A stretch of 64,000 nt of DNA from Aliiroseovarius sp. F20344 (GTDB lineage Bacteria > Pseudomonadota > Alphaproteobacteria > Rhodobacterales > Rhodobacteraceae). A program made the position numbers and the translations under genes. The notes under the pieces were generated by a model. That model made no database searches. It had not been told where the DNA came from and saw nothing but the letters and a program-made list of their open reading frames with translations. Each line of letters begins with the position of its first letter. Positions within the stretch are counted from its first letter, which is position 1. The stretch covers positions 1,118,501 to 1,182,500 of the forward strand of contig NZ_JALKBG010000008.1 of the NCBI RefSeq assembly GCF_023016155.1. Reading direction: 5' to 3'. Of the stretch, positions 1 to 15,400 are shown piece after piece.

Positions 1-1763
1 CCTTTTTCCCAGAATTCCTCGAACGGGATCTCTTTCGCGGCGCCGGATGCTTCATAGGCGAGCTTGATGTGGTACATCTTGTCTTCGCCATCGGTGAACT
101 GTGCCCAAAGCCCCAGTTTGTCGGCCAGACCCTCGAAGATTTCATAGTCCGGTTTGCTGTCCCCAACTGGTTCAATCACCTTCTTCATCGCGTAAACACG
201 ATCGTTCGAGTATGTGCCGCCCGAAGTGATATCGTCCTGTTCCAGCGTCGAAGAAGCCGGGAACACGATGTCGGCCCAACGGGTTGCTGCCGTCCACCAG
301 ACGTCTACGCAGACAATGGTTTCGACTTTCTGCAGCGCGCGGATCAGCCGGTTGGTATCCTGCTGGTGCGACATGAAGTTGTTGCCCGCGTTGAAGATCA
401 TCTTGATGTCGGGATAGGTATTGGTCTGCCCATTGTAAAAGAAGTCTACATTTGGGTTTTCCAGCGCCTCGGTGATACGCGAAGCAGGCACCACTTTCTT
501 GATGAAGTTTCGGCCCTGGCTCATGCCAACCGGCGTGGCGTTGCCACCTTGGGGCATCCCGCCATTGCCATAATGCCAGCTGAAGCCAACGCCTTGACCC
601 GGCTTACCGATTTTACCCAACAGCGCCTGGAAATTGACGATTGACCAGTATGCCATTTCACCGTGCTGCGCACGTTGGATGGCCCACGAACCTGCAATGG
701 CAGTTTTCGAGGTGGCAATGGTTTCACAGAGATCTTTGATCTGCTGCGCTTCTATGCCGGTAATCTTCGACGCCCATGCCGGGGTTTTCGGTGTACCGTC
801 GGTTTCACCTTTCACATAGGCAATCCATTTGTCGGCACCGACCGTGTATTTCGCCATATACTCTTTGTCGTCCCAGCCGTTTTCCAGCGCGTGATAGGCC
901 ATGGCCAGGAACAGCGCGGTGTCGGTGTTGGGGACGATCGCAGTACGCTCAGCACCGAGGTATTCGTCGGTTGCCGTATGCTGCGGGTTGATCGAGATGA
1001 ACTTCACGCCGTTGTCACGGATCTCTTCCCAGTGGGCATACATGCCGTGGTCCGCAACGCGGTATTCGATCCGGTTGTTTTTGATCGGGTCACAACCAAC
1101 CAATACGAATACTTCGGTTTCGTCACGGATGGTTTCCCAAGCAGACTGAGCGGAATAGACTTCCATGTCACCGATGATATGCGGCATGACAACCTGACCC
1201 GCACCGGCAGACCAGTCGCCCGCGGTGTTGGTGCAGCCACCCATGAGGTTCAAAAGACGGCCCTGAAGCACGTTGGGGCGGAACACGCCTGCATTCGACC
1301 AGCCGCCATAGGACGAGCTGAAGATCGCTTCGTTGCCATGGTTTGTGGCGGTGTCCAGAAGTGCCTTGGCCGCAAGGGACCATGCAGTATCCCAGTCGAC
1401 GCGAACCCATTCTTCTTTGCCGCGAAGCTCGGGTTTGGTGTCGCCGGTTTCCCAGCCTTCCAAGTAGGATTTGCGCACCATCGGGTAATTGACGCGGGTT
1501 TTGTCATAGGTCCGGTCCATGACGCCATAGGTCAGCATCTCGGTCGGGCGGGCATCCAGCTCCATCATGGTGTTGATGCCGATAAGTTTCCCGTCACGCA
1601 CGACGGCCTCGAACGGGCCATAGTGGCTGGCGTGGAATGTACGACCCGAGAACGAGTTCGGGTCGATCGAAGCAAGCGCGGTAGTTCCGAATAGGGATGT
1701 CGCGCCGAATGCAGCAGCGCCCCCTTGAAGGAACGCACGGCGGGTTGGGTTCTGGAGTGTCAT
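1..1763 (-). CDS. torA: TMAO/DMSO-family molybdopterin reductase, 5' part (TorA-like)
   Basis: This is a periplasmic terminal reductase that reduces trimethylamine N-oxide (or a related N- or S-oxide) using a bis-MGD molybdenum cofactor. The first 587 residues are visible and the 3' end lies outside the window. The N-terminus has a twin-arginine signal (TRRAFLQGG, then a hydrophobic stretch ending in ALA), so the folded enzyme is exported by Tat. Typical family segments follow, such as GGWSNAG and VGCDPIKNNR. The start at 1763 is fixed by an excellent ribosome site (AAGGAGG, spacing about 6). Divergent torR and nearby torS/torT favour TMAO as the substrate over DMSO. A torC cytochrome and torD chaperone would be expected downstream but cannot be seen. 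Confidence 0.9.
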   Translation of the reverse strand, partial: MTLQNPTRRAFLQGGAAAFGATSLFGTTALASIDPNSFSGRTFHASHYGPFEAVVRDGKLIGINTMMELDARPTEMLTYGVMDRTYDKTRVNYPMVRKSYLEGWETGDTKPELRGKEEWVRVDWDTAWSLAAKALLDTATNHGNEAIFSSSYGGWSNAGVFRPNVLQGRLLNLMGGCTNTAGDWSAGAGQVVMPHIIGDMEVYSAQSAWETIRDETEVFVLVGCDPIKNNRIEYRVADHGMYAHWEEIRDNGVKFISINPQHTATDEYLGAERTAIVPNTDTALFLAMAYHALENGWDDKEYMAKYTVGADKWIAYVKGETDGTPKTPAWASKITGIEAQQIKDLCETIATSKTAIAGSWAIQRAQHGEMAYWSIVNFQALLGKIGKPGQGVGFSWHYGNGGMPQGGNATPVGMSQGRNFIKKVVPASRITEALENPNVDFFYNGQTNTYPDIKMIFNAGNNFMSHQQDTNRLIRALQKVETIVCVDVWWTAATRWADIVFPASSTLEQDDITSGGTYSNDRVYAMKKVIEPVGDSKPDYEIFEGLADKLGLWAQFTDGEDKMYHIKLAYEASGAAKEIPFEEFWEK

Positions 1764-1844
1764 TGGGTTTCCTCCTTGGACAATCTCGGGACGAGTGTGT
1801 GCCTACGAGGGTTCCGCCACGTTGACTCCAAGCAATTTGCTTTG

Positions 1845-1867
1845 TGTAAATTTGTAAATGAATGTAA
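1845..1867. promoter_or_regulatory. Three tandem TGTAA motifs, candidate TorR operator
   Basis: TGTAA occurs at 1845, 1853 and 1863, spaced 8 and 10 bases apart in an AT-rich stretch between divergent torA and torR. TorR-type response regulators bind tandem short direct repeats near torC/torA. The match is to the arrangement, not to the E. coli decamer sequence. It could equally be part of the torR promoter. Confidence 0.35.
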
Positions 1868-1876
1868 CTTGAGCGT

Positions 1877-2581
1877 ATGACACAGCACATCGTCATCGTC
1901 GAAGACGACCGGGTATCGCGCATGCGGTTGGCAGGGTATCTGCGCCAGCTGGGCTATCGTGTGTCTGAAACCGAAGACGCCGAGCAGATGGAACACCTGC
2001 TGGAATACGATCCCGCCGAATTGCTGCTGGTGGATATCAATCTGAACGGCAAAGACGGGCTGACGATCACACGCGAGCAGCGCGCCTTGTCCAAGATCGG
2101 CATCATCCTTCTGACTGCACGCAACGATCAGGTCGACAAAATCGTTGGTCTAGAGATGGGCGCAGATGACTATGTCACCAAGCCCTTCGATAAGCGCGAG
2201 CTTGCTGCGCGTGTCAAAAACCTACTGGTTCGGATCAGCGATATAGGGCAAGCACCCGAGGGGGCGCCTCCGATCGACACGTTTGGACATTGGCGGTTTG
2301 ACCGTATTCGCCGTCGGTTGATCAGTCAGTCCCGAACCGAGACGTTAACCGGAATCGAGTTCGGAGTATTGAAGGCCCTGACCGACAACCCCGGAGTCAC
2401 CCTCAGCCGTGTTCGCATTGATGAACTGCTGGGGCGTCAACATACGCGTGCCAGCGACCGAACCATTGATGTGGTCGTTGGTCGATTGCGCAAGAAGATC
2501 GAAGAAGATCACACCAACCCTGATTGGGTTTTAACCGTCCACGGGCAAGGCTATCGCTTTGTCGCGCCCGACGTGGATTGA
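1877..2581 (+). CDS. torR: OmpR/PhoB-family response regulator, TorR-like
   Basis: This is a cytoplasmic DNA-binding response regulator of 234 residues. The receiver domain is at residues 1-120, with acidic pocket D10/D11, phospho-acceptor D53 (in LLLVDINLNG) and K102 (TKPF). The winged-helix effector domain is at about 135-232, with the recognition region SDRTIDVVVGRLRKK. Its gene is divergent from torA, and its 3' end overlaps the 3' end of torS by 31 bases. It is therefore the likely partner of the TorS phosphorelay, switching on torA in response to TMAO. The identification as TorR rests on context, because the domain architecture is generic. Confidence 0.85.
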   Translation: MTQHIVIVEDDRVSRMRLAGYLRQLGYRVSETEDAEQMEHLLEYDPAELLLVDINLNGKDGLTITREQRALSKIGIILLTARNDQVDKIVGLEMGADDYVTKPFDKRELAARVKNLLVRISDIGQAPEGAPPIDTFGHWRFDRIRRRLISQSRTETLTGIEFGVLKALTDNPGVTLSRVRIDELLGRQHTRASDRTIDVVVGRLRKKIEEDHTNPDWVLTVHGQGYRFVAPDVD

Positions 2582-5346
2582 ATACCAGCCCGCTCCATAG
2601 CGGCACTCAGCATCTCTTCCGCATCCTTCGCGGTTTGGTGCAGGCGTTCCCACTGTTCGGACGAGATTTCGCCCTCGGTGCTTTCGAGTTCAGCAAGTGC
2701 TTCACGAATTGCTTCTAGCCGATAGTTGGACACAGCGCCCTTCAGACGGTGTGCCAACCGCTTCTTTTCATCGGTATCAGCAGCCGCAATCAGGTTGATT
2801 GCACGCGGAATGTCGGCCTGAAGTTCCAACAACACCTGCGTTGTCGTGTCGATCCCAAGATCGGAAATATCGTCTTGAATGCTTTTCAACACAGAGTCGA
2901 ACATGGCGTCCCCTGCGTCTTCAGGTTTTGAATTCTGCGGCAACAGCTCGATCAGATCCACCAACCGACGTGGAGATATTGGCTTTGCCAGAATGCGTCG
3001 GACGCCCAAACGTTCACGTTCAACCGAGCTGTCTTCGATGACATGGGCCGTCAACGCAGCCACCACCGTTGTTTCAGGAAGGGGATCAAGGCGTTTGATA
3101 ACCTCTTCGCCGCTGATGTCGGGCAAACCCAAATCCACGAGGATCAGATCAAACGGGTTTTTCTTCACCGCAGCAAGAGCGGCCCGTCCGGTCTCGGCTT
3201 CGGTCACATGACATCCCAAACGCTCAAGATAGCCGCGTGCAACAATACGGTTGACCGGATGGTCTTCGATGACCAGCACCGTTTTTCCGACATCCCCGAC
3301 GGGGGCAAACGTATGCTGCTCGATCTTTTCGGGATCTCCGGCGATGACGGGCAAGCTAAGAGTAAAGCGGCTTCCGACACCGGGTTCGCTTTCCACCTTA
3401 AGCGCCCCGCCCATTGCTTCGGTCAAATTGCGCGAAATGGGCAGTCCAAGCCCCGCCCCTTCGATCCAGCTGCTTTTGGCTTCGTCGGTGCGGGAATAGG
3501 GATCAAAGGCGCGTATCAGAAAGTCCTTGGACATACCGACGCCAGTATCCTGCAACACAAAAGACAAGAGCATCTGACCATCATCTCCCGTCGGCACACA
3601 CTCGATCGACAGCGAGATCGCCCCCTCGTTTGTGTACTTAACCGCGTTAGAAATTAGATTGGTCAGAACCTGCCTGATCTTCACAACGTCACCTAACAGA
3701 ACCGGAGGACCGTCCGAGGAAAGATCAACCGTGGCCGCCAATCCCTTGGCTTGCGCATCCCCCGTCAAATGGTGGTTAAGTTGCCCAGCGAATTCACGTA
3801 GGTTGAAGTGAACCGGGCTGGTGCGCGCAGCCAATGGTTCGCTTCCGGAATAGACCAGAATGTCGTTGCTAAGTTCCAAAAGCTCGCGCGCTGATACGAG
3901 TGCCGTGTTGATGCGCGCTTTCTGAGCATCGTCATCTACTTCGGCCAATAGCAAGTCGAGCATCCCAATCACGCCGTTCAGTGGCGTGCGAATTTCGTGG
4001 CTCATCCGCGCCAGGAATTCGGACTTGCTGCGGTTGGCGGCTTCAGCCTCGGTCCGGGCAGCATCCGAGACCTTCATCTCTTGCACCACTTCCCCGGTCC
4101 GTGCCAGCACCGCATCCTCGAGTGAACTGCGCAATTCGGCAGCCTGTATAGCTCGGCGGCGCAAAACATTGATGGCTTTTTCCATGCGCCCGATTTCGTC
4201 ATGACGGGTAATCTCGATCGGAGTGCCGAAACGCTCGCGTGCCAGGTCGACGACTCGGTCAACGACCAGCCGAAGTCGCGTGATCAGCTCGCGCCGAGCA
4301 TAACCCCAGCTTAACGCCGCCACTACCCCGGACAGCAGCACCAGAACCAACAGTCCATTGGCCAGACGTCCGGTCAGCTTATTGCTGTGTTGGATTCTTT
4401 GAAGGCTTGCGGCTTGAACGTCGCGTCGCACGATCTGCGCGTGCCGCGATAGTCCGTCGACCGCATCGAGCAGCCGTGCGCTGTCGGCTTCGACCGTCGC
4501 GCGTAGGGTCAGCCTACGTATTGACAGATCGAGCAACCCGCCGGCTTCAAGCACGTCACTTTGCATCTGCAATAGCCTGCGCGCTTCTGCGCGACCCGCC
4601 TTCGTCGGCAGGAAAGGAATGCGGCGCAAGAACAGCGCCTGATTTTGTCTGACCAGGTTACCCGCTTCTTCAACGTCCATTGGCGTGTTTAGAAGATGAA
4701 CCTCTTGTAATGTAAGGCGTGTCGCCTCTGAGGCGCGTAAAAGTTCGGTCATCCTGTCGAACGCGAAGAAATCCCGATCAGCCAATCGGTCAAGCTCGGT
4801 GCGCCCATCCGATTGATGTTCGGAATACAGATCGGCGATCGTGGAGGTGATTTTCAATCGGGCAAGATCAAGCTCTGTCTCTAGCAAAGCGGCAAGCTCC
4901 CGTCCGGTTTGACCAGACGTTGCCGTGATCTCGTGGACCAAGGTGGTCAACTCAAGTGCGTCGCGTGCATTTTGCGCCAAGCTGACAACGATTGCGACGA
5001 TGTCGGGCCGTTCCCCGGCAGGCGACGGGTCTGTGACGATGGATTCCAACGAGCGCATTCCGTCTTGAATGCGCACAACCGTCCGTCTTAGTGCCTCGGC
5101 AAGCTCTTCCTGTGTTGCTTGTGTATCGGCCTGTACAAATGACGTCGCCAGCGAGCGTACTAGGCCAGCCTCGGCCGCGACCCTGCCGGAAAGCTCCATC
5201 ACCGGGCCATTTTCTTCTATGAGGCGGGTGTTGGATTGAATGAGATAGCGGTTGACGCCTACAGCTGCGATGCCCACCATGACGGCCAGAAAGCCCATGA
5301 GCGAAAAAACGAGCATTAATTTCTTGTCAAAAGACTGGCGTCGCAT
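2551..5346 (-). CDS. torS: Tripartite hybrid sensor histidine kinase, TorS-like
   Basis: This is an inner-membrane phosphorelay kinase of 931 residues. Its order is: TM segment at about 12-33, a long helical periplasmic sensor at about 35-330, a second TM at 331-349, HAMP at about 350-400, HisKA with H450 (FLARMSHEIRTPLNG), HATPase_c with DTGVGM near 600-605 and GLGLPIS near 632, a receiver domain with D738, and a C-terminal HPt domain with H866 (AHRLKGAVSNY). This is the full His-Asp-His layout of TorS, about the length of the E. coli protein. It should sense TMAO together with TorT and pass phosphate to TorR. It overlaps torR at its 3' end and torT at its 5' end. Confidence 0.9.
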   Translation of the reverse strand: MRRQSFDKKLMLVFSLMGFLAVMVGIAAVGVNRYLIQSNTRLIEENGPVMELSGRVAAEAGLVRSLATSFVQADTQATQEELAEALRRTVVRIQDGMRSLESIVTDPSPAGERPDIVAIVVSLAQNARDALELTTLVHEITATSGQTGRELAALLETELDLARLKITSTIADLYSEHQSDGRTELDRLADRDFFAFDRMTELLRASEATRLTLQEVHLLNTPMDVEEAGNLVRQNQALFLRRIPFLPTKAGRAEARRLLQMQSDVLEAGGLLDLSIRRLTLRATVEADSARLLDAVDGLSRHAQIVRRDVQAASLQRIQHSNKLTGRLANGLLVLVLLSGVVAALSWGYARRELITRLRLVVDRVVDLARERFGTPIEITRHDEIGRMEKAINVLRRRAIQAAELRSSLEDAVLARTGEVVQEMKVSDAARTEAEAANRSKSEFLARMSHEIRTPLNGVIGMLDLLLAEVDDDAQKARINTALVSARELLELSNDILVYSGSEPLAARTSPVHFNLREFAGQLNHHLTGDAQAKGLAATVDLSSDGPPVLLGDVVKIRQVLTNLISNAVKYTNEGAISLSIECVPTGDDGQMLLSFVLQDTGVGMSKDFLIRAFDPYSRTDEAKSSWIEGAGLGLPISRNLTEAMGGALKVESEPGVGSRFTLSLPVIAGDPEKIEQHTFAPVGDVGKTVLVIEDHPVNRIVARGYLERLGCHVTEAETGRAALAAVKKNPFDLILVDLGLPDISGEEVIKRLDPLPETTVVAALTAHVIEDSSVERERLGVRRILAKPISPRRLVDLIELLPQNSKPEDAGDAMFDSVLKSIQDDISDLGIDTTTQVLLELQADIPRAINLIAAADTDEKKRLAHRLKGAVSNYRLEAIREALAELESTEGEISSEQWERLHQTAKDAEEMLSAAMERAGIQSTSGATKR

Positions 5347-6337
5347 AGCGCGACCCTACGCGCGGCCGATTGCAACTGCAATCATCGGGCTTTCGTTTGC
5401 GGTCGGTCTATCTGCCGAGGACGTGAAAGCTCAGACCAACGAAGCTGAACTTTCAATTTGTGTTCTGGTCCCGCATTTCAAGGACGAATACTGGCTGAGT
5501 GTGGGCTATGGGCTTGAGCATGAGGCGCAAGGACACTCGCTGGACCTGATGTTCTTCGAGGCAGGTGGCTATCAATCTCGGGACAGTCAAATCTCTCAGC
5601 TGAACGAATGTGCCGCACGGCAGGTCGATGCGATTCTCATCGGTGCCGTTTCCTCTGACCATCCAGATATGCTGGCAACAATCCGTGACGTCTCGCAAAA
5701 GCTACCTGTCTTCGGGCTAGTAAATGAATTGCACAGTGAAGATCTCTCGGGGCGGATCGGTGTTGATTGGCAGCAAATGGGGCAGGTGCTTGGGGATTAT
5801 TTGGCTCTGAGGCATCCCTTTGGTTCGCCGCCAAAGCGCGCGGTTCTGATTTCCGGTCCAGTGGAATCCGGATGGGCCCCACCGCTTGAGCTGGGCCTGC
5901 GTTCAGGGCTATCGGACAGCAGCATCGAGATCGTCGGTGTGTTCAGCGCAGATACCGGCTTGCGTCAGCAGCTCAAGGCAGTCGAAGACGCCTTCGCAAC
6001 CATTCCCGATATCGACCTGTTGATAGGCAGCGCGCCTGCAGTGGAGTCGACCGTTGGCTTAAGCAGGGTTACGGACATGAACGCCGATGTGGATTTGGTT
6101 TCGACCTATATCAGTCATACGATCATGCGCAGCATCTTGAACGGAAGAGTATTGGCGGTTCCATTCGACGACCCCGTGCAACAGGGAGAGCTTGCCCTCA
6201 ATCAGGTTCTGAGGTCCCTGCAAACTGGTCGCAAAGGTGGACTCGAAGGGCCTACAATCAGGCTCTTTACTCACGACGAGAAAAGCAAGATGGATATACC
6301 GCTATCTCCTTCTGGATATTTTCCAGAGATTCAGTAG
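5297..6337 (+). CDS. torT: Periplasmic TMAO-sensing binding protein, TorT-like
   Basis: This periplasmic substrate-binding protein of the LacI/ribose-binding fold works with the TorS sensor domain. After a signal region (hydrophobic core IATAIIGLSFAVGLSA, likely cleaved after VKA) it reads VLVPHFKDEYWLSVGYGLE, characteristic of TorT. The C-terminal half contains a DLLIGSAPAVE segment. Start choice is uncertain. ATG at 5297 gives 346 residues, TTG at 5324 gives a shorter signal, and upstream starts lie deeper in torS. Every plausible start is inside the torS coding region, so the two divergent genes overlap head to head by roughly 20-50 bases. The last gene before the non-coding gap and transposon. 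Confidence 0.82.
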   Translation: MSEKTSINFLSKDWRRIARPYARPIATAIIGLSFAVGLSAEDVKAQTNEAELSICVLVPHFKDEYWLSVGYGLEHEAQGHSLDLMFFEAGGYQSRDSQISQLNECAARQVDAILIGAVSSDHPDMLATIRDVSQKLPVFGLVNELHSEDLSGRIGVDWQQMGQVLGDYLALRHPFGSPPKRAVLISGPVESGWAPPLELGLRSGLSDSSIEIVGVFSADTGLRQQLKAVEDAFATIPDIDLLIGSAPAVESTVGLSRVTDMNADVDLVSTYISHTIMRSILNGRVLAVPFDDPVQQGELALNQVLRSLQTGRKGGLEGPTIRLFTHDEKSKMDIPLSPSGYFPEIQ

Positions 6338-6680
6338 CCGATAATTTCCGTTCGCCACTTCGGCTGCAAGCAGTGAATACAGTTGCTTTTCCAAGCATTC
6401 GCTAGTTTGGGCAGCTTTGCTGCGTTAAGGGAAAACTCGGTTCCTCAATTATCAGAGTGTCTGCTTTAAACTGTGCTGCTGGAACAGTTCGCGTCTGTAG
6501 CGAATGTCTGCTCTCCGCCCGATGTGCCTAAAGTAATTACAGCATTGGGCAGGGATTTCAGGAGCCGCGATCTGGGCAGACGGGATTAATGGGCGGAAGA
6601 CGGCCATCTTAGACTCTAGGATCCAATACTTGCGTTCCTGCTGGATGCTTCTTGTGGTGCCGCAGAGAACCCATCAGTGT
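6338..6680. repeat. Non-coding stretch with degenerate inverted repeat (6504-6607)
   Basis: No coding region is convincing here. The segment ATGTCTGCTCTCCGCCC (6504-6520) is mirrored imperfectly by GGGCGGAAGACGGCCAT (6591-6607), 12 of 17 matching, about 70 bases apart. A further GTCTGCT copy lies near 6461. This resembles an old interspersed palindromic element rather than a gene. I cannot tell whether it recurs elsewhere in the genome. Confidence 0.3.
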
Positions 6681-6707
6681 AAAAAACCCCAGCTTTCTGC
6701 TGGGGTT
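6681..6707 (-). terminator. Intrinsic terminator
   Basis: Read on the minus strand: AACCCCAGC, loop AGAAA, GCTGGGGTT, with six consecutive Ts closing the stem and continuing past it. This is a textbook Rho-independent terminator oriented with the candidate transcript that starts near 6852. Confidence 0.8.
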
Positions 6708-6852
6708 TGGGTGTCTCGACCGGGTGCGCTTCCTTAGCCCAAGGGGTCGGAGCGGCCTTGCGACCTATCGAGAAATGCGGATTTGACGCTAAATCCGCCG
6801 CCGCCACCCCAGCTATCGTGTGCGCCAAACACCAGGGCTAAAGCTCTTTGCG
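6681..6852 (-). ncRNA. Candidate small RNA or small-peptide transcript (about 170 nt)
   Basis: The unit is bounded by a strong minus-strand promoter (-35 TTGACA, 17-base spacer) and a perfect intrinsic terminator (9-bp stem plus six Ts). Inside it a GTG-initiated frame of 32 codons ends at 6734; it encodes a glycine-rich peptide with the run GGGGGFSV and ends in DPLG. Its ribosome site is weak (AAAGAG about 10 bases upstream). So it is either a regulatory small RNA or a short mRNA. It is GC-richer than the adjoining transposon and lies between torT and the recombinase-like gene. I do not recognise it as 4.5S RNA, 6S RNA or tmRNA. Confidence 0.45.
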
Positions 6853-6858
6853 AGCGTG

Positions 6859-6887
6859 AATATGACCTTACCAATAGAAATTGTCAA
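6859..6887 (-). promoter_or_regulatory. Sigma70-type promoter
   Basis: On the minus strand a perfect -35 TTGACA (6882-6887) is followed after exactly 17 bases by CATATT (6859-6864), which matches four of six positions of the -10 consensus. Transcription would start near 6852. No annotated gene follows directly. The only downstream signal is the intrinsic terminator at 6681-6707. Confidence 0.55.
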
Positions 6888-7031
6888 AATCTGCTAACAC
6901 CAACGAACGATCCAAAGTTGTTGTCAGGCAATCCTCGATAGTGCTTTGAAATCCATTGGATCCTTCTTTTGCCGCCATTTGCGGCGGAGATTTCGAATGA
7001 CTGTTTCTCTTTCTCGAGCGCTAGGTTGCGA

Positions 7032-7745
7032 TCAAACTCGACCAATATAGCGCTTGCTTATCAGTCGCGACAGCCCCGAAGCTGGCGCCCAAGTGGGTTC
7101 TCCGACAGGCCCCATTTCTGTCAAATCTAGCTTTGCGTCAAAACGATCCGTAAGCCGCTTGAGTGCTGGCAGAACAGATTTGTAGCCGGCTAGTTCCGCG
7201 GCGGCGTATGGGTGGTATCCCTCGTTAATGAGATAGGGCAAGCCAGCGGATCGAATGACGGTTGCATTTAACAATCCAGCTTCCGCCATCTTTTGCTTGG
7301 TTCCGTATTTTCTTATGATCGCTGAAGCTGATTTGGCAGCGAGAGATCGGTTGCCTGGTACGGTGCCAGCCGATTGAAAACCAGGAAATATTAGACTGTC
7401 TCTGTTGAGTTGACCGCGAATGCCTTCTAACCGATCAAGCCATGCCTCAAGTTGTTTGCGCGCGGGATTGAGAAGTAAAAAGGTCCTGTTGTCCAATCTG
7501 AGCGCGTTCTGACGGCTGAGTTCATATTCCTGCTGACCGACTTTCAGGGCGATAACCCCCACCAAATTTTTCAATCGAGCACTCAACAGATATCGCAACG
7601 GGCAAGCAGAATGATACAGAATGGATAGTATTGCCTTGTTTCGATAGTCGATCAAACGACGTGATCGCTCGTGACGGATAGATTCCCTTAAAGCAGCCGT
7701 ATTGCGTTCAACATCTCGTTTAAATTTTCGAGGTAGTGTGAGCAT
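7032..7745 (-). CDS. Tyrosine-recombinase-fold protein, apparently catalytically dead
   Basis: The protein has 237 residues. The start at 7745 is set by a strong ribosome site (AGGAGGT, 5-base spacer). It follows the layout of a tyrosine recombinase catalytic domain: RNKAILSILYHSACPLRYLL matches the box I helix with its arginine, SLIFPGF matches the strand before the core, and TVIRSAGLPYLI matches the HxLRHxxATHLL box. XerD of this same window serves as an internal guide. Against it the box II histidine is Thr (its arginine is kept), the LGH histidine is Tyr (LAGYKS), and the nucleophilic tyrosine position is Leu (RLTDRF). It should bind DNA without cutting. It is divergent from tniA and may be element cargo, a regulator or a targeting factor. 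Function is not known. Confidence 0.55.
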   Translation of the reverse strand: MLTLPRKFKRDVERNTAALRESIRHERSRRLIDYRNKAILSILYHSACPLRYLLSARLKNLVGVIALKVGQQEYELSRQNALRLDNRTFLLLNPARKQLEAWLDRLEGIRGQLNRDSLIFPGFQSAGTVPGNRSLAAKSASAIIRKYGTKQKMAEAGLLNATVIRSAGLPYLINEGYHPYAAAELAGYKSVLPALKRLTDRFDAKLDLTEMGPVGEPTWAPASGLSRLISKRYIGRV

Positions 7746-8256
7746 TTCCGACCTCCTGACGGGAAGTGTTTTTCGCCAATGTTTGCGCAATGCACAGGTG
7801 ATTTTCTCTTCTAGATGCCGTGGTCCAGGCACCCACAAGGTGTTGGTGTAGAAGGAAGCTGAGATGCTTTCTCCATTTTATCAACGCCTTAGAAAAGCAT
7901 ACATCGGCATTAGCTCTTTCGCCCAGCACGTGTTTTCCAGAAAACCTATTTTGTGGACGATATATCGTTGTCGAACAGCCGTCCTGCATCAACAAAATAA
8001 TTATTGCAAAAACAAAGCCTTAAATCGGAAAATATATGTGAGCATTGGCTCAAAATTTAACCAAACAAAGGAGCACAAAATATGTAGAGCAGGGATGAAA
8101 AAGGCAAAGCTCACGTCCGGCAAGACGCGGGCCTTTTGCACCTCAGTTGAGGCGTTTCGGTAGTTCACCGTTACGATGATCATCTCACAAAACCAATGAA
8201 AGTCAACTCGTAACTGCTGCGGCAGAACAGTGAGTTATTGCCTAAGGAAATGTGAA
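7746..8256. promoter_or_regulatory. Divergent leader of the transposon genes
   Basis: These 511 bases lie between the recombinase-like gene and tniA. They hold a perfect 12-base palindrome ACGATATATCGT (7957-7968), a TGAGC/GCTCA hairpin near 8040, a nested stem-loop at 8099-8137 and a CCTCA-GT-TGAGG dyad (8141-8152). No coding region is convincing; short open frames lack good ribosome sites. The palindrome is well placed as an operator for both directions, and transposase-binding sites may also lie here. Confidence 0.4.
8099..8137 (+). terminator. Nested stem-loop upstream of tniA
   Basis: The outer stem AAAAGGC (8099-8105) pairs with GCCTTTT (8131-8137), and the inner stem CGTC (8114-8117) pairs with GACG (8124-8127) around CGGCAA. 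The plus-strand product ends in TTTT, so it could terminate or attenuate transcription running towards tniA. A 22-codon frame (8095-8163) overlaps it, which would suit a leader-peptide arrangement, but this is speculative. Confidence 0.35.
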
Positions 8257-9870
8257 ATGACCCATGATCTAGAAGTAGAGAAAGAGAGGCGAGCTCAGGA
8301 AATTGCTTTCGCTCTCATGCCCTATGCTGATGGCGAAAAGCTGACGAAAGCGGCGATCGTCGACCTGAGAAAACAACTTGGTTTGTCCAGGGCGACGATA
8401 TTCAAAAAACTGAGAACACTCCGGCGGCACGGTACAGTGTCGAGCTTGATCCCACTCAAGCCCGGGCGACGACCATTGAGTAGGTTCTTGTCGCCGCTGC
8501 ATGAAAAAATAATCGAGAAGAAGATCCTGAAATCGTTCTTGTCACAAGATCATATATCACCGCACGCGCTATATAAGTGGATCATCGGCGAGCTCCAATC
8601 TCGTGGCCTGGAACCTGTCGACAAATCAACTCTGTTAAGCCGAATACATGAGATCGAACCTCGCAAGGTTGTTGCAAAACAAAAAGGGATGGCTCAAGCG
8701 CGTACAGAGTTTGATCTAGTTAAAGATCACTTTGTTGCAGACCATCCTCTGCAATGCGTTCAAATCGATCACACAAGAGCAGACATTATACTGGTTGATC
8801 CCGTCACTGGCGAACCAATCGGACGGCCACTTCTTACGATCTGTCTGGATGTCCACACCAGGATGCTTGTTGGGCTGACACTTTCTATGACCACACTCAG
8901 CGCACATGCGTTGGCACGTGTTTTCTATGACGCCGTGATGCCAAAACAGAAGCGATTGGAGGAGCTGAAACTATCAGTTCGATGGCCATGCTTTGGTTTG
9001 CCCGAGATTGTGCATTCTGACAACGGCTCCGACCTAGTTTCAAACGCTTTCGAAGCAGGCTTGGAAGACAACGTAATCAAACATTGGAAGCGGCCGGTTC
9101 GAACGCCGCGCTATGGTGGGCATATCGAACGAATGTTTCGAACGTTAAACAACTACATACATTCTTTGCCAGGTTCGACCTTGTCCGACACCAAAAAATT
9201 GGATGGTCGCAAACCTGAACACGCCGCGTGCCTTACGCTCAATCAGTTCGAGCGATTGCTCGTAAGCTACGTATGCAACGTTTATCATAAGGAGAAGCAT
9301 TCTGGCCTTCACGATACCCCTGAAAATGTTTGGGACCGATGGTGGCGCGCGCGAGATGCGCAGCCAATACTGCCGCGAGACGCAGAGCGTTTCCGCCTGA
9401 GCTTTCTTCCGCACAAAACAGGGGCGATTGGCAAGGACGGCGTCACATTTAATCATTTAAAGTTCCGATCCCGCACGCTGCAAAGAATGCGTAATTGTGG
9501 GGTTCGATCTGTTCGATATCACTATGACCCTGAGGACATTCGCAAGATCTATGGATGTGACGACAAGGGAGGTATATTTGAGATCCCCTGTGTCAAATCC
9601 TTCCATCAGAAAATTTCTCTGTCAGAATGGGGAGAGATGCACGAAGAAATCGCGCAAAATGGATCGCGTTACACGGATGCCGATCTGGCTCGACAATATC
9701 AACTGCATGATGAGATTTTGGGGCAGGGGGCAAAACTTAGAACTAAGCGACGGAAATCCAAGCGGTTGTCTAAACGGGGTAGCAAACCAATTCCAGCACC
9801 CTTTGCAGCGTTGAAGCCTTCCGCACTCACCCGCAGATTTGGTCAAGACGGGGAGGGGAGTGATGCGTGA
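8257..9870 (+). CDS. tniA: TniA/TnsB-type DDE transposase
   Basis: This is the transposase of the Mu/Tn7/Tn5053 group, 537 residues, which cuts and joins the element ends. An N-terminal helix-turn-helix (about 30-60, LGLSRATIFKKLRTL) should bind the end repeats. The RNase-H-fold core has D171 (CVQIDHTRAD), D255 (VHSDNGSD) and E291 (GHIERMFRT), giving the D-x35-E spacing. A Mu-type beta-barrel and a basic tail (RTKRRKSKRLSKRGSK) follow. The ATG at 8257 is preferred, with AAGGA upstream, over a GTG nine codons earlier. The stop overlaps the tniB start (ATGCGTGA), so tniA, tniB and tniQ are translationally linked. Base composition is AT-richer than the chromosomal neighbours. Confidence 0.93.
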   Translation: MTHDLEVEKERRAQEIAFALMPYADGEKLTKAAIVDLRKQLGLSRATIFKKLRTLRRHGTVSSLIPLKPGRRPLSRFLSPLHEKIIEKKILKSFLSQDHISPHALYKWIIGELQSRGLEPVDKSTLLSRIHEIEPRKVVAKQKGMAQARTEFDLVKDHFVADHPLQCVQIDHTRADIILVDPVTGEPIGRPLLTICLDVHTRMLVGLTLSMTTLSAHALARVFYDAVMPKQKRLEELKLSVRWPCFGLPEIVHSDNGSDLVSNAFEAGLEDNVIKHWKRPVRTPRYGGHIERMFRTLNNYIHSLPGSTLSDTKKLDGRKPEHAACLTLNQFERLLVSYVCNVYHKEKHSGLHDTPENVWDRWWRARDAQPILPRDAERFRLSFLPHKTGAIGKDGVTFNHLKFRSRTLQRMRNCGVRSVRYHYDPEDIRKIYGCDDKGGIFEIPCVKSFHQKISLSEWGEMHEEIAQNGSRYTDADLARQYQLHDEILGQGAKLRTKRRKSKRLSKRGSKPIPAPFAALKPSALTRRFGQDGEGSDA

Positions 9871-10744
9871 TCTCAGCCACCTCGAACCAGCCAGCCGTCC
9901 GATAGTCCAACGGACAATACCTGAACGCCTCGTGTATCTTCAGAACGCAGTTAACTTTCCACTAAAGCCGCTCGACGAACTTCAAGAGGGGCTGAGGCAG
10001 CTTGCATCCGGTACGACACAATCCCTAAAACCGCTTACCGTCCTTTTCGCTCCTTCAGGCATGGGTACGAGTTCTATGTTGGCGCGTTTGAAGGACAGCC
10101 TTCCAAGTGTATTGGATGCAACTTCCCAAACTCATGTGCAGCGGTTTGCACTGGGGACGTTATCTGAAAACATTTCGATACCAGACCTCTGTGCCGAACT
10201 ATGCAAATCAGTTCATTTTGCGAACCATCCCTTTGGCACTGTGCCATCGACAGGTCCACGTACATCAGAAGCATTGCATTCGGTTGGTGTAAGAATGATT
10301 GCGATTGACGATCTATCGGCACTTCGTGGAAAGCCAAACGACAGACGATCACAGCTCTTTGACTTTGTTCGAACGGCGATTTCACGTTACGGTTTGCATG
10401 TCGTCCTGAACGCAACTCCAAAAACCGCGCGGATCGTTGCCCAAGATGAACAGCTTTTGGCGCGCGCGAACTTCATCGAGATCCTACCGTTCAAGTCGAA
10501 TTCGACGGAGTTCCTCGCGTTCCTGGAGGCTTATTGTCGTTGGTGTCCATTGGAACGTCAGTCAGATCTGCTCGACGATCAATCCCTCAGAAAAGCTCTG
10601 GTGCAGCGAAGCAATGGAAATACCAGGAACACTTTGGACATACTCGGGCGTCTGGCAGAGTACGCAATCCTGTCTGGTGAAGAACGGATCACATACAGGC
10701 TTCTACGAGACTATTTCGATGGTGTCAGCTATGGCGACGCTTAA
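9863..10744 (+). CDS. tniB: TniB/TnsC-type AAA+ regulator with altered Walker A
   Basis: This 293-residue protein should be the AAA+ ATPase that links the transposase to the target selector. The fold is clear from order and position, but the P-loop reads APSGMGTSS. The invariant lysine of GxxxxGK[ST] is Thr69 here (codon ACG, one base from AAG). Walker B is IAIDDL (D149, D150), with Asp where a catalytic Glu is usual. Other segments look normal for the family, including the C-terminal helical lid (RSNGNTRNTLDILGRLAEYA). The start at 9863 has GGGGAGGGG just upstream and overlaps the tniA stop. ATP binding or hydrolysis may be weak or lost. The gene is otherwise intact. Confidence 0.85.
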   Translation: MRDLSHLEPASRPIVQRTIPERLVYLQNAVNFPLKPLDELQEGLRQLASGTTQSLKPLTVLFAPSGMGTSSMLARLKDSLPSVLDATSQTHVQRFALGTLSENISIPDLCAELCKSVHFANHPFGTVPSTGPRTSEALHSVGVRMIAIDDLSALRGKPNDRRSQLFDFVRTAISRYGLHVVLNATPKTARIVAQDEQLLARANFIEILPFKSNSTEFLAFLEAYCRWCPLERQSDLLDDQSLRKALVQRSNGNTRNTLDILGRLAEYAILSGEERITYRLLRDYFDGVSYGDA

Positions 10745-11825
10745 ACCTTTTGTCCGGTATCGGTTGCCGATGCCGGGCGAGGCTTTCCCGTCATTTCTTG
10801 CCAGGAACGCGGCAATCCTCTTAAGCAGTCCGGAGCAACTACTACTGTCGACAGTTGACGCGATAAACGGCGCGATGGAACCCGGGCCGGATCTCGCGCT
10901 GCGCTTGACGCTCGCACCTGCGCATGAGGTTACTGAGCACTTGGCCCGGATGTTCTCTACTGATGCGAAAGCGATCTCGAGCCTGTTTCCGCGCTCTATA
11001 TGGCCTTATGTAAAACGTCGGGACCTAACCGCCGATGGCGGGGCAAAATCCTTGGATGGCATTGGCACGTCGTTTTCTGACAGGTTTCGATACGGATGGT
11101 GCCAACAATGTCTTCTCGAGGACCGGGCAGGGGGCAAGGATCACTTTATCCGTCAGCATTGGATATCCACCTACACCACGATTTGTCCAGTTCATAACAG
11201 GCCGCTCAACGGCTATTGCGCGAGCAACTCTTGTCGCAAGCAAGTTACGCTGCCCATCTTCGTCGATTATGGCAAATCCCTGGTGCTGATCTGTCCGAAA
11301 TGCCATCTGCCGCTCGACAGTCCAATCGGAGTTGACTTCGTCACACAATCAAATGCCCGGCAGCTCCTCAACGATCCCGAGGCAGTGACGCTTTATCGCC
11401 AGCTGGCAAACATGGAGGCGTTTCTGCTGGACGGGTTGTGTGTGCGGACACCCAGAAGCAAACGACACGCACTCGCAAACCGCTTGCTCAAGTGCTGCAA
11501 TCTGATGCTGCGTGCAGAATTCGGAAACGCGCTCCGAGCTATCGATTGCTATGATAACACGTTCATTCGTGTTCCGGTGAAATTGGGGGCCGCGGTGAGA
11601 GGCTTATCGGAGCCGTTTCCCGCAGCAACGCTTGTGGAGCGTCGAAAATCGATCGCATTGCTCTCATCGCTGATGACCAATCGATATCGCGCATATGGCT
11701 TTAATCGACCGGTGGTGACATTGGAGCAATTCGGCGATGCAATGACGCGCGATCTGTTTGAGCAGTTTCAGCGCAACATCTACGACATCGCGCAAATGGC
11801 TTTACCTACAAATCTAGATGTCTGA
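10731..11825 (+). CDS. tniQ: TniQ/TnsD-type target-site protein
   Basis: This 364-residue protein of the TniQ family selects the target for Tn7-like elements. The N-terminus PMPGEAFPSFLARNA resembles the conserved TniQ opening. Zinc-finger ligands are visible as C124/C127 with C152/H155 (WISTYTTICPVH), and a second group around C163, C168, C188 and C191. The C-terminal third is helical without a recognised domain. The start at 10731 lies inside tniB and overlaps it by 14 bases, so it is probably translated by coupling. Shorter than the classic TnsD of Tn7, closer to the TniQ of Tn5053-type elements. Confidence 0.9.
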   Translation: MATLKPFVRYRLPMPGEAFPSFLARNAAILLSSPEQLLLSTVDAINGAMEPGPDLALRLTLAPAHEVTEHLARMFSTDAKAISSLFPRSIWPYVKRRDLTADGGAKSLDGIGTSFSDRFRYGWCQQCLLEDRAGGKDHFIRQHWISTYTTICPVHNRPLNGYCASNSCRKQVTLPIFVDYGKSLVLICPKCHLPLDSPIGVDFVTQSNARQLLNDPEAVTLYRQLANMEAFLLDGLCVRTPRSKRHALANRLLKCCNLMLRAEFGNALRAIDCYDNTFIRVPVKLGAAVRGLSEPFPAATLVERRKSIALLSSLMTNRYRAYGFNRPVVTLEQFGDAMTRDLFEQFQRNIYDIAQMALPTNLDV

Positions 11826-11927
11826 TGGCAGTATGCGACGTATACGATGGCCAGGTTGAATCCCGTCAGCACAGCCAAGATCACGCAAGTCCCGAAAACA
11901 TCCGGTCATTGAAAACATTAAAGAACG

Positions 11928-11955
11928 AGTCTACCTAATTGAGTCTCATTAATTA
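11928..11955 (+). repeat. Tandem 14-bp repeats in the transposon right tail
   Basis: GAGTCTACCTAATT (11928-11941) is followed directly by GAGTCTCATTAATT (11942-11955), 11 of 14 matching. They sit in the AT-rich 257-base gap (11826-12082) after tniQ, with further AATTAAC copies near 11952 and 11991, an ATGCGCAT palindrome (12009-12016) and TTTGATCAAA (12028-12037). Repeated short sites near an element end are what TnsB/TniA-type transposases bind. No matching inverted copies were found on the left side. Confidence 0.35.
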
Positions 11956-12082
11956 ACCAGTTCTACAATGATCACTGTGTTAAGATAACAATTAACATAA
12001 TATAGATTATGCGCATTATAGACGACCTTTGATCAAACGTATAATAATTCCCCCCCGGTTCGAGTTTGGACTGAATTTTGTG

Positions 12083-14515
12083 CTAACTCCGAACTTTCTC
12101 CATTTTCGGGTCATAAAGTGGACTTAAGGTAACCTCAGCGGGCACACGTTTGGTTGCCACCTCGAGCTCATATGTACCTTTAAGCACATAGTCTTTGTCG
12201 ATCGGTTCAGTGGCACGCACATATCCCATCCCGATTGAGCGCTCTAATGTATGTCCATAACCCCCCGACGAAAGCCAACCGCAGCGTTCTCCATTCCGGT
12301 AGATCGTTTCACGGCCAGACAGAATGGTGTCACCATCTGTCGTGAAGGTTGCCAGGATCTTATGAAGCCCGTTTTTACGTTGATTAACAACGGCTTCACG
12401 ACCTTTGAACGGAATGCTGGATTTTATCTTCACTGCCCAGCCAAGACCCGCTTCATCGGGTGTGTGATCCGGCCCGATATCCGCCGACCATGCGCGGTAG
12501 CCTTTTTCAAGTCGAAGGGTCTCAATCGCTCTATAGCCAGCATTTCTAAGCCCATGAGACGCTCCTGCCCTATGCAGCGCGTCATAGACAGTTTGTGCGT
12601 ATTCCGTGGGCAGATGAAGTTCCCATCCCAGCTCACCTACATAAGTGATCCTAAGGGCTAGTATTGGACAACCCGCAATTCCTATTTGTTGCGATGTCGC
12701 AAAGGGTTGCGCCTCATTACTTATGTCATCTCTGGTGACCTTGGACAGGATATCTCTTGCCTTTGGTCCAAACAAAGACAGAACCGCATTCGAAGATGTC
12801 ACATCGACAAGCTGCGCATTCAGACCCTCAGGAATGTTTCGACGGATCCAGTCGAAATCATGGGTGGCAAATCCGGTCCCAGTGATAATGTAGTAGCTGT
12901 CATGGCCCGTGCGGACACAGGTTAAATCGCATTCGATCCCACCTTTGTCGTTCAGCATCTGGGTATAGATGATTGATCCCACGGGCTTGTCGACGCGATT
13001 GGCTGCAATCCATTGCAACGCGGCTTCTGCATCCGGCCCTTGTAGGATGAACTTGGCAAAGGAACTTTGGTCAAACAGCACGGCCGCATCGCGCGCGGCT
13101 TTGTGTTCGCGGCCCACGGCTTCGTGCCAATTGGGGCGTTCAAATGTGTAGATATCGCGGGGCTCCTCGCCCTTTTCTGCAAACCAGTTTGGCCGTTCCC
13201 ACCCAAGCTTCTCTCCAAACACCGCGCCTTCGGACTTGAGCCTGTCATAGAGGGGTGAGCGACGGCACGGCCGACCGCTTTCATGTTCCTCTGATGGCCA
13301 TGCCATCGTGTAATGCTTTCCGTAAGCTTCAAGCGTGCGGGTCCGCACCCAATCGGTGTCCGTATGGGGCCGGCCAAAGCGTCGAATGTCGACGGGCCAC
13401 AAATCATAGGGCGGCGCGCCCTTGGCAACCCATTCCGCCAGCGCCATCCCTGCCCCGCCGCCCGATGCGATGCCGAACGCATTAAAGCCCGCGCCGATAA
13501 ACACGTTCGCCATTTCGGGCGCTTCGCCCAAGATGAAATTGCCATCAGGCGTAAAGCTTTCAGGCCCGTTGATCAGCTGTTTCACCCCTACGGTTTCGAG
13601 CTTTGGAACACGAGGCAAAGACAGTTCCATCAACTGTTCGAAATGGTCGAAATTTGATTCCAAGAGCTGGAAGTCAAAGGGATCAGGAATGCCATCCTTG
13701 GCCCAAGGGATGCCGTTCGGCTCATAGCCTCCCATCACCAGCCCGCCGACTTCTTCTTTGTAGTAGGTCAGCCTGTCGGGATCGCGCAGCGTTGGAAGGT
13801 CTTTGGGCACACCAAACGCCTCGGTCACCATGTACTGATGTTCAACCGAAACAAGCGGTACGGTCACGCCGATCTCCTTGGCAAGTTCGCGTGTCCATTG
13901 CCCACAGCACAGCACCAGTTTTTCGCAAGAAATGTCTCCTTGCGGCGTGCGCACGCCAATCAGCTTCCCTTTTTCGGATAGGATTTTCGTGACCGGCATG
14001 TTTTCGATCAGAACCGCGCCCTTGGCCCGTGCCCCGCGCGCAAGTGCCTGGGTGATGTCCGATGGGCTCGCCTGCCCGTCTGTCGGCAGAAACGCCGCAC
14101 CTACAACGTCCGAAATATCCATGAGCGGCCAGAGGGCTTGCGCCTCTTGCGGTGTCAGCAACTGCATGTCCAACCCAAAGGAATGTGCTGTGGTGGACTG
14201 CCGTTTCACCTCGGTCCAGCGTTCTTCGTTACAGGCCAGCCGCAACCCGCCATTCATTTTCCAACCGGTTGCCAGACCGGTTTCCGCCTCGAGCTTGTCG
14301 TAAAGATCAATCGAATAGCCCAGCAACTGCGTGATGTTGGCGTTTGAACGGAGTTGCCCGACCAATCCTGCAGCGTGCCAGGTGGAACCGGACGTCAACG
14401 CGGCTTTCTCAAGTAGCAGTACCTCTTCCCCCATTTGGGCAAGGTGATACGCGGTTGAGCAGCCGATGATGCCGCCGCCGATGATGAGTGTTTTGGCAGA
14501 TGGAGGAAGCGTCAT
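12083..14515 (-). CDS. FAD-dependent dimethylglycine/sarcosine dehydrogenase-like with GcvT domain
   Basis: This is a cytoplasmic flavoprotein of 810 residues that should demethylate a secondary or tertiary amine such as dimethylglycine or sarcosine and pass the one-carbon unit to tetrahydrofolate. An N-terminal DAO domain (1 to about 370) has the dinucleotide motif IIGGGIIGCSTAYHLAQMG, with STWHAAG (H47) where family members attach FAD covalently. A linker domain and a GCV_T folate domain (about 430-800, YVGELGWELHLP, RLEKGYRAW) follow. The gene lies 9 bases downstream of the kinase-like gene, at the end of the ABC-transporter operon. Exact substrate cannot be read from sequence; related proteins act on several N-methyl compounds. 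Confidence 0.85.
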   Translation of the reverse strand: MTLPPSAKTLIIGGGIIGCSTAYHLAQMGEEVLLLEKAALTSGSTWHAAGLVGQLRSNANITQLLGYSIDLYDKLEAETGLATGWKMNGGLRLACNEERWTEVKRQSTTAHSFGLDMQLLTPQEAQALWPLMDISDVVGAAFLPTDGQASPSDITQALARGARAKGAVLIENMPVTKILSEKGKLIGVRTPQGDISCEKLVLCCGQWTRELAKEIGVTVPLVSVEHQYMVTEAFGVPKDLPTLRDPDRLTYYKEEVGGLVMGGYEPNGIPWAKDGIPDPFDFQLLESNFDHFEQLMELSLPRVPKLETVGVKQLINGPESFTPDGNFILGEAPEMANVFIGAGFNAFGIASGGGAGMALAEWVAKGAPPYDLWPVDIRRFGRPHTDTDWVRTRTLEAYGKHYTMAWPSEEHESGRPCRRSPLYDRLKSEGAVFGEKLGWERPNWFAEKGEEPRDIYTFERPNWHEAVGREHKAARDAAVLFDQSSFAKFILQGPDAEAALQWIAANRVDKPVGSIIYTQMLNDKGGIECDLTCVRTGHDSYYIITGTGFATHDFDWIRRNIPEGLNAQLVDVTSSNAVLSLFGPKARDILSKVTRDDISNEAQPFATSQQIGIAGCPILALRITYVGELGWELHLPTEYAQTVYDALHRAGASHGLRNAGYRAIETLRLEKGYRAWSADIGPDHTPDEAGLGWAVKIKSSIPFKGREAVVNQRKNGLHKILATFTTDGDTILSGRETIYRNGERCGWLSSGGYGHTLERSIGMGYVRATEPIDKDYVLKGTYELEVATKRVPAEVTLSPLYDPKMEKVRS

Positions 14516-14524
14516 GGCGTGTCC

Positions 14525-15400
14525 TTATGTGTTTTGAAAATCTTTAAGGGAAGCGTTAAGCCGCTCCATGTTTTCGGCGGTATAGGCGACGAAATCGAAA
14601 TCCAATTCGGAATGGATTTCTGACGTCATGGACCAAAGGGTTTCACGCATGAGCGATACACATTTCATGGCTTGATAGGGGCGCCAGTGGGTCTTAGCGG
14701 GGACCTCGAAATACTGCTCAAGCATGTCGCGCTCTTGCGCTTCTGAATACCCGTTGTTTCCGGCAAGACCGGCCAAATCAAACAAGGGGGTATTGAAGCC
14801 GCCATATTCCCAATCGATCAGCCAAAGTTTTTTTCCATCATCAAGGATATTGGCGGCCAGCAGATCATTGTGACCAATCACCAGAGTGACCGGGCCAGTT
14901 GCCTCTTCCAACCTGTCCAAATCCTCCATCAGTGCGGGCAGTTTGGCGATGTTCCGGGACCCTTCTGCGCGCAGCCGTGTGGCATAAGTCCTGTTCACCT
15001 GAAATGGCCAAAACGTTAGAACCGGCCCCGTCAAATGCTGACTGAGTGCGTGATGCGTGTGTTTTAAGAGCTTGATGATGCGGGGCACGTTTTCAGGGTC
15101 TCGCGCCATTTCTTCCGTGAATGTTTGCGCGTCGATGAAATCCAGCACCAGAGCGCCTGGTTCGTGGTAATGCACCGCGGGTGAAATGCCAGCCGCCTCG
15201 GCCGCCCGACTAAGCGCCAACTCGTTCCAACGCATAACCCCGTGTTCCGGGATGTCGCTCCCAAGCCTGACAACATAGTCACGTCCTTCGTCAGTCACCT
15301 TCAGGTTCACATTGGTGATCCCACCACTCAGCGGTTCAGTTTGCTGAGGGTTTTTGAAGCAAGGCAAAGCCGCCGCTTTGGCAATTGCGTGTTCTGTCAT
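14525..15400 (-). CDS. Choline-kinase-like phosphotransferase (LicA/APH fold)
   Basis: This 291-residue kinase belongs to the aminoglycoside-phosphotransferase/choline-kinase fold. An N-lobe SGGITNVNLKV is followed by the catalytic loop HNDLLAANIL (H177, N178, D179, N184) and the metal-binding IDWEYGG (D196). It should transfer phosphate from ATP to a hydroxyl, with choline the model substrate. The start at 15400 overlaps the permease stop as ATGA, so it belongs to the transporter operon. A kinase next to a betaine importer and a dehydrogenase suggests the imported compound is phosphorylated or carries a hydroxyl; this is inference. A longer upstream frame without a start signal was not used. 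Confidence 0.85.
   Translation of the reverse strand: MTEHAIAKAAALPCFKNPQQTEPLSGGITNVNLKVTDEGRDYVVRLGSDIPEHGVMRWNELALSRAAEAAGISPAVHYHEPGALVLDFIDAQTFTEEMARDPENVPRIIKLLKHTHHALSQHLTGPVLTFWPFQVNRTYATRLRAEGSRNIAKLPALMEDLDRLEEATGPVTLVIGHNDLLAANILDDGKKLWLIDWEYGGFNTPLFDLAGLAGNNGYSEAQERDMLEQYFEVPAKTHWRPYQAMKCVSLMRETLWSMTSEIHSELDFDFVAYTAENMERLNASLKDFQNT

Follow-up and report, generated by a model that had tools for sequence, protein, structure and literature searches.

A Tn5053-like tniABQ transposon beside the chromosomal dif of Aliiroseovarius and a family that probably inserts at a fixed distance from dif

The dif site, where bacteria separate joined chromosomes, is acted on by Xer tyrosine recombinases, and elements integrated through Xer (IMEX) are left with a copy of dif at each end. 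The transposon described here carries tniA, tniB and tniQ and lies in a stretch of 64,000 nucleotides from Aliiroseovarius sp. F20344 (contig NZ_JALKBG010000008.1, positions 1,118,501 to 1,182,500; this whole stretch is the window, and its numbering is used unless a contig or locus is named). Unlike an IMEX, it has one dif only, outside its right end, together with a 5-bp target duplication. Among described systems, Tn5053-family elements are presented as ‘res site hunters’ that target resolution sites (PMC11406308), the ISAjo2 group of the IS1202 family as ‘dif site hunters’ whose authors suggest a contact of the transposase with bound XerC (PMC10132070), and TnsF of Tn6022 as a protein with an inactivated tyrosine-recombinase domain that targets comM, in a work where Faure et al. 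name a short TniQ as a hallmark of an additional target selector (PMC10293859). Literature searches that paired dif or Xer with tniA or TniQ, dif with Tn7-like elements, and XerD or dif with Tn402/Tn5053 yielded no description of such elements among the matches listed. Judged from sequence, the best explanation of the whole is quite probably a Tn5053-like tniABQ transposon from a family that inserts with a fixed spacing to dif, because the spacing is near-constant, because elements with and without a degenerate tyrosine-recombinase gene (rec) both lie beside dif, and because copies are stacked at the same base. Such a family would add dif, conserved on most bacterial chromosomes and some plasmids, to the target classes of Tn7/Tn5053-like elements.

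Like Tn5053/Tn402, the window element has tniA-tniB-tniQ in a row, a putative serine recombinase, TGT...ACA ends and a 5-bp duplication, and its family likewise appears to target a site-specific recombination site; in Tn5053/Tn402, however, this is the res site of a serine resolvase rather than dif of the Xer system, and the window’s branch further differs from that family, compared by description, in its dead tyrosine-recombinase gene and metabolic cargo. Tn5053/Tn402 elements are further characterised by 25-bp terminal repeats and by a serine resolvase gene (tniR) with its res site. The IS1202 elements, as described, share with the window’s family a fixed distance from dif or its plasmid counterpart (pdif), TGT...ACA ends, a 5-bp duplication and a TnsB-like transposase, but they are portrayed as 1.5-kb insertion sequences with a single transposase and without tniB, tniQ or cargo, against 24,764 bp with tniABQ here, and as lying 5 bp from the XerC arm, whereas the distance here is 21 bp (in the window, 22 bp and to the XerD arm). 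Tn6022, in its published account, resembles the window element in three respects: it is Tn7-like, its TniQ is short, and it encodes an accessory protein bearing an inactivated tyrosine-recombinase domain. In that account TnsF has 498 amino acids (aa), N-terminal zinc fingers, tandem core-binding domains, a putative operon with tniQ, and comM as its target, whereas Rec, compared with TnsF by description, has ~237 aa, is encoded on the opposite strand and is found at dif, not comM.

The whole element occupies G000:C8:1105704-1130467 (24,764 bp; contig coordinates in the window’s own genome, G000, are given as G000:C8). Its left end lies 12.8 kb left of the window, and positions 1..11967 (plus strand) form the part within it, delimited by a 5-bp duplication, ATGAT, at both ends, by related terminal sequences and by the empty site in relatives. 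The ends were located via a motif common to three elements. On the right, the terminal repeat (11940..11967, plus strand, outward end ACA) contains TAATTAATGAGACT, common with both ends of an element from an uncultured Rhodobacteraceae genome (G248), and this shared repeat core marks the end at 11967; one copy of ATGAT (no strand) follows at 11968..11972, and the second is at G000:C8:1105699-1105703. The left end was the best candidate in the 132 kb scanned, with 6/18 mismatches and ATGAT duplicated, and the runner-up with a TG start and a duplication in that scan had 10 mismatches. The G248 element (L035 3203-12037) has terminal repeats TGTGARGGTTYGTAATTAATGAGACT and a duplicated TGTTT, and TAATTAATGAGAC-like cores are common to the ends of the elements analysed. 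An earlier, sequence-only reading had placed a minimal element at 7032..12040; these limits were not borne out, since the left end precedes the window, the right end is at 11967 and positions 11990-12017 are dif, and neither was the minimal content, as the 24,764 bp include genes for molybdenum cofactor and for respiration of trimethylamine N-oxide (TMAO) as well as a serine recombinase. A search for repeats with a duplication near those borders, in 6338-7100 and 11700-12110, gave nothing convincing.

The three transposition genes overlap, as that reading had stated, and all lie on the plus strand; each was confirmed by a Pfam match: tniA, encoding a DDE transposase (8230..9870; Mu-transpos_C 2e-06, over cut-off; rve 4e-04, under cut-off), tniB, encoding an AAA+ ATPase (9839..10744; TniB 1.9e-08, over cut-off), and tniQ in a short form of ~364 aa (10731..11825, with the start set by homology; TniQ 5.5e-10, over cut-off, for the open reading frame (ORF) 10437-11825). 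They are also AT-richer than their surroundings (GC 0.513 for tni and 0.497 for rec, vs 0.552 for the right flank). No gene for TnsA, which belongs to Tn6022/TnsF elements, was found among the ORFs scanned, which comprised part of those of the element. A small helix-turn-helix gene upstream of tniA in G221, G248, L204, L205, L207, L255 and L256 was not found by tblastn beside the window tniA.

The 28-bp site at 11990..12017 (minus strand) lies outside the element, 22 bp from its right end and with the XerD arm proximal. It has 1/19 mismatch to the dif pattern and is the sole window site with ≤4 mismatches; with ≤3 allowed, the own genome has this site at 1 mismatch and three others at 3, and the pattern was present in 25/32 genomes and absent in 7/32. 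FtsK orienting polar sequences (KOPS) in the 184 kb around it number 47 forward and 1 reverse on the left, 0 and 16 on the right, and GC skew switches sign at the site (20-kb samples, some near zero). This is the chromosomal dif, where KOPS polarity and GC skew flip. At the G248 dif, 4 forward KOPS were counted on the left and 8 reverse on the right (109 of 117 kb), and in Pseudaestuariivita rosea (G221) 30 forward and 1 reverse, all on the left of a dif beyond which the contig stops after 2.3 kb.

The empty site was sought in ten chosen relatives, eight of them congeners and two from the wider family, whose dif is of the chromosomal type. The genes rpsB, tsf and luxR were near dif in 10/10 of these regions and aroQ was detected in 8/10, with dif ≤0.5 kb from aroQ or luxR in nine relatives and 1.4 kb away in one (L183). 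None of the ten dif regions contained a TniA match, any such matches in those genomes lying elsewhere. In the window’s genome aroQ sits on the element’s far side, and the flank outside the left end aligned to sequence beside dif in 5/5 relatives tested, with scores of 14-22 vs maxima of 8-11 from 200 shuffles. Mapping the ends against relatives without the insertion, which had been asked for as a check, thus revealed the empty site. The genome search found no dif pattern (≤3 mismatches) at the left end. A tRNA, a tmRNA or another RNA as target was considered and rejected: the window’s single tRNA is at 59291-59376, Rfam on 5300-12300 gave one match far below the gathering score, and among six loci only one tRNA (L082) was found, the same one that ARAGORN returned on 15 loci.

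Three genomes of the window’s genus also contain tniABQ, with TniA 35-36% identical, and the copies in two of them (G397 and G409) are in the dif region. The sister loci L204-L207 and L254-L257 have no Rec-like ORF (Rec profile E ≥0.075). Four complete Rec-less elements with exact 5-bp duplications were delimited (L255 2114-17688, L205 2714-16044, L207 1674-15530 and L256 421-10595), and beyond their right ends (...GTCTCATTAATTACGTACTCCGACA or a close variant) lies a dif-like site, on the chromosome for L255 and L256 and on a plasmid for L205 and L207; the end motif was not found within 6 mismatches in L204, L206 or L254. In all, 17 sister-type right ends were compared, including 10 plasmid stretches from an end-motif search and one end beside a dif match (L123); 12 of the 16 plasmid records with the motif were taken in, and H40, H43, H44 (Bacillus, 57% of query) and H46 were left out. 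Three of the 17 abut another element’s left end after 5 bp. In the 14 that do not, the best dif-like 25-mer is at offset 24 (12 ends) or 23 (two), with 1-7 mismatches of 19, and the Rec-bearing elements have offsets of 24 (G221), 24 (G248) and, with dif reversed, 22 (window). At random window positions, ≤7 mismatches occurred at offset 24 in 0.045% of 20,000 and at any offset in 2% of 2,000. The XerC side is proximal in 16 cases (the 14 sister-type ends, G221 and G248) and the XerD side in the window. Three outward ends read on the opposite strand, namely the left ends of L255, L256 and L207, had no dif (best 9-10 mismatches). The L123 end, in G411, was found via its dif, and some right ends belong to partial elements, because no TniA of the family exceeds 26% identity in that genome.

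Head-to-tail stacks with 5 bp between the elements were seen at L255 2084-2114, L205 2684-2714 and L259 320-355. The 5-bp spacer that separates the old from the new element in L255 and L205 is identical to the duplication beyond the new right end, so the later insertion hit the same base as the earlier one. The stacks suggest that there is no target immunity among such copies.

The TniA tree (19 rows, midpoint-rooted, with long branches flagged) placed the three Rec-bearing rows in one branch (100/99) and four dif-placed Rec-less rows plus three unplaced ones in a second (100/100), with nine others apart; by their TniA sequences, the Rec-bearing and sister rows are two clades of one group. Both types of element reached the P. 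rosea locus, because a broken sister-type tniABQ (L034 2951-6395; TniQ 65%, TniB 63% and the N-part of TniA 59% identical to G397) adjoins the Rec-bearing element there; between the two are two ORFs (6888-8321) inside a 22-bp inverted repeat (6881, 8406), perhaps an insertion sequence. A TniA profile run on 385 genomes of the class gave eight at E <1e-60, of which the seven other than the own genome scored 270-314 bits vs 991; some of these may be sister-branch members. A viral contig also matched, at 32%. Of two contig scans for relatives, the first gave none and the second 39 loci, where the dif pattern at ≤4 mismatches was found only at L084 and L085, which correspond to the G221 and G248 loci; this cut-off misses weaker sites, as G397 and G409 show.

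The rec gene (7032..7838, minus strand) is an ORF of 268 aa with a likely start at 7745, preceded by an AGGAGG read by eye, which would give ~237 aa. It had no Pfam or NCBIfam match of its own, and a single-sequence search found it in 2/394 genomes of the family (own and G221). A profile built from the three Rec proteins (window, G221 and G248), run on those 394 genomes at E ≤0.01, matched in 27: the three members (E <1e-100) and 24 weak matches (E 4e-4 to 0.01). All 24 weakly matched proteins are Phage_integrase by Pfam, and box II of the catalytic domain (HxxRH...GH) was spanned in 23/24, the L242 match stopping at HxxRH. The only Protein Data Bank entries at E ≤10 were two of XerD (E 0.79 and 0.89), which would mean little alone; profile-profile comparison with seven recombinases gave P 0.0017 and a probability of 15%, vs 0.28 and 0.2% for a TniA control. 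Alignment columns of the three Rec proteins were read by eye, and the columns of boxes I-III and the tyrosine are those which we take to be catalytic. The box-I arginine is P, P, S (the window Rec has an arginine two places further on), the box-II histidine T, S, H, the box-III histidine Y, Y, L and the catalytic tyrosine L, I, I (G221 Rec has a tyrosine two places earlier), and the box-II arginine is retained in 3/3. The match to the Xer catalytic domain begins at about residue 26 of 233 in G221 Rec, so the usual N-terminal domain is absent. By these comparisons Rec, whose three members are mutually 19-25% identical, is a degenerate tyrosine-recombinase catalytic domain without that N-terminal domain. 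The degraded fold first proposed for this divergent gene is thus upheld, since besides Rec the profile finds only tyrosine recombinases and the catalytic residues are lost. An integrase of a separate island was rejected as an identity for Rec because of these losses and because the gene lies within the mapped ends. An intact host XerC/D-type tyrosine recombinase (PF00589, 1.1e-44) is encoded at 39130-40071, ~27 kb from dif.

Strong Rec homologues (E <1e-100) in the 394 genomes are only these three, own included, and all are at tniABQ loci. The three elements come from three genera and all adjoin dif. In P. rosea rec is divergent and 0.6 kb from tniA; in G248 it is behind tniQ, tail to tail, within the mapped ends. 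The suspected partnership therefore recurs elsewhere, and in the window element too rec is inside the mapped ends, a test that had been set beforehand.

The landmark for insertion would be dif occupied by XerC/XerD. The short TniQ would read the occupied site, directly or through a partner, and load first TniB and next TniA, which would place the junction of the right end ~35 bp from the dif centre. In the window’s branch the likely partner would be Rec, with contacts to Xer or dif at one face and to TniQ at another, whereas host Xer would suffice for the sister branch. Transposition is presumably replicative, with the serine recombinase expected to resolve cointegrates, and a nearly symmetrical protein-DNA landmark would make both dif orientations possible. 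Rec may thus bridge TniQ to dif or host Xer in its own branch. A bolder form of this idea is that a dead, catalytic-domain-only Xer relative has become a dedicated adaptor that docks on host XerC/XerD-dif and calls in TniQ, making the complex for chromosome-dimer resolution a landing signal on chromosomes and plasmids alike; this we hold tentatively, as somewhat short of an even chance. With one branch having the dead recombinase and another lacking it at targets of one type, the family would amount to a natural experiment in how occupied recombination sites are read by TniQ, which has been a question ever since the ‘res site hunters’ were described.

The sequence-only reading had suggested that Rec might act as a second target selector. 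Such a role may exist, all three Rec-bearing elements adjoining dif, but Rec cannot be the family’s general dif selector, because four complete Rec-less sisters go to a site of this type with almost identical spacing. If Rec itself were the dif-binding selector of its branch, as TnsF is in Tn6022, with host Xer unneeded and TniQ bridging to the transposase, one would expect just what is found of the three elements at dif, the dead tyrosine-recombinase domain shared with TnsF, and the short TniQ that marks an additional selector according to Faure et al.; yet a protein of ~237 aa without the XerC/D-like N-terminal domain may not bind DNA alone, and the sisters reach dif without it, which makes this explanation unlikely. 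It is only a little easier to believe, and still doubtful, that Rec stands outside target choice, as an anti-Xer factor protecting the insertion, a regulator of tniABQ or a passenger. The choice of the same kind of site by Rec-less sisters would fit, as would the varying position of the gene (in the window and G221 it precedes tniA in divergent orientation, in G248 it comes after tniQ), and the failure to find the small helix-turn-helix gene in the window would leave a regulatory role for rec; against this, the dead domain belongs to a family that works at dif, and the branch’s elements have kept Rec despite the 19-25% identity. Direct recognition of dif DNA by TniA or TniQ, with neither Rec nor Xer involved, would account for a spacing exact to the base and has a parallel in the IS1202 family, whose TnsB-like transposase is described as finding dif without further transposon proteins (PMC10132070). 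Plasmid sites with 5-7/19 mismatches nevertheless serve at an unchanged offset, something more in keeping with a site occupied by protein than with strict reading of sequence, and we regard direct recognition as quite improbable. Terminus regions tolerate insertions, and islands gathering at replication termini could lie near dif by chance, but a spacing that varies by no more than 1-2 bp across chromosomes and plasmids, along with the exact stacking, leaves this hardly credible.

Several observations weigh against a dif-targeting family with Rec as a partner. Only three Rec-bearing elements were found, and since Rec-less sisters use the same kind of site Rec may act otherwise. The G248 tniB (L035 9291-10201) is split across two frames, which may mean an inactive copy or a sequencing error, and the right end in P. 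rosea was placed by alignment only, no left end being found within its 92-kb contig. The window element is reversed relative to dif, and its centre distance is 1 bp longer than the common one. Plasmid dif-like sites are often weak, with up to 7/19 mismatches, and the chance rates come from window DNA, perhaps less AT-rich than plasmid flanks. Several plasmid right ends are non-independent, coming from strains of one species, and the 14 ends are not 14 independent events because the strains are partly related. The ten plasmid ends were read as stretches of ~640 bp, for the end and its dif-like site alone. For Rec, profile-profile comparison with a host XerC/D-type pair was weak (P 0.003, probability 10%), and AlphaFold models from three-sequence alignments were unusable (pLDDT 42 and 39).

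The interior of the window element contains torA-, torR- and torS-like genes, torT, moaA, moaC, moeA, moeB, and genes for a molybdopterin adenylyltransferase and a serine recombinase, among others. NCBIfam matches were over cut-off for moaA, moaC, the molybdopterin adenylyltransferase, MoeB (one model) and torT, and under cut-off for MoeA, TorA, TorR, TorS, a LysR regulator and the serine recombinase. The cargo genes in the window begin with a TorA-like molybdenum N/S-oxide reductase (3..1763, minus strand), which crosses the left edge and whose partial protein matched bisC_fam (2.5e-178) and TorA (1.6e-143) below the curated cut-offs. It is followed by a torR-like response regulator gene (1877..2581, plus strand; TorR 5.4e-71, under cut-off), a torS-like sensor kinase gene (2551..5346, minus strand; TorS 4e-119, under cut-off) and torT, for a periplasmic protein of the TMAO reductase system (5252..6337, plus strand; TorT PRK10936 1.7e-88, over cut-off). 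Insertion at dif would show how this block of cofactor and TMAO-respiration genes came to sit at the terminus. The serine recombinase ORF (L153 12863-13798) is distant from tniQ, with NCBIfam matches under cut-off, and a serine recombinase gene is present in both the window and G248 elements. The initial statement that the element lacks cargo and a resolvase was accurate for the stretch then read, not for the interior with its tor and molybdenum-cofactor genes and serine recombinase; the companion idea that Rec replaces a resolvase is unsupported, given the serine recombinase gene in both this element and that of G248. In the Rec-less element at dif in L255, several unnamed ORFs (172-597 aa) occupy 12941-17688, between tniQ and the right end. 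Elsewhere in a congener’s genome (G408), a torT 84% identical to the window’s lies beside an integrase-like ORF (L082 13497-16252), and the tor genes may therefore travel on other islands too.

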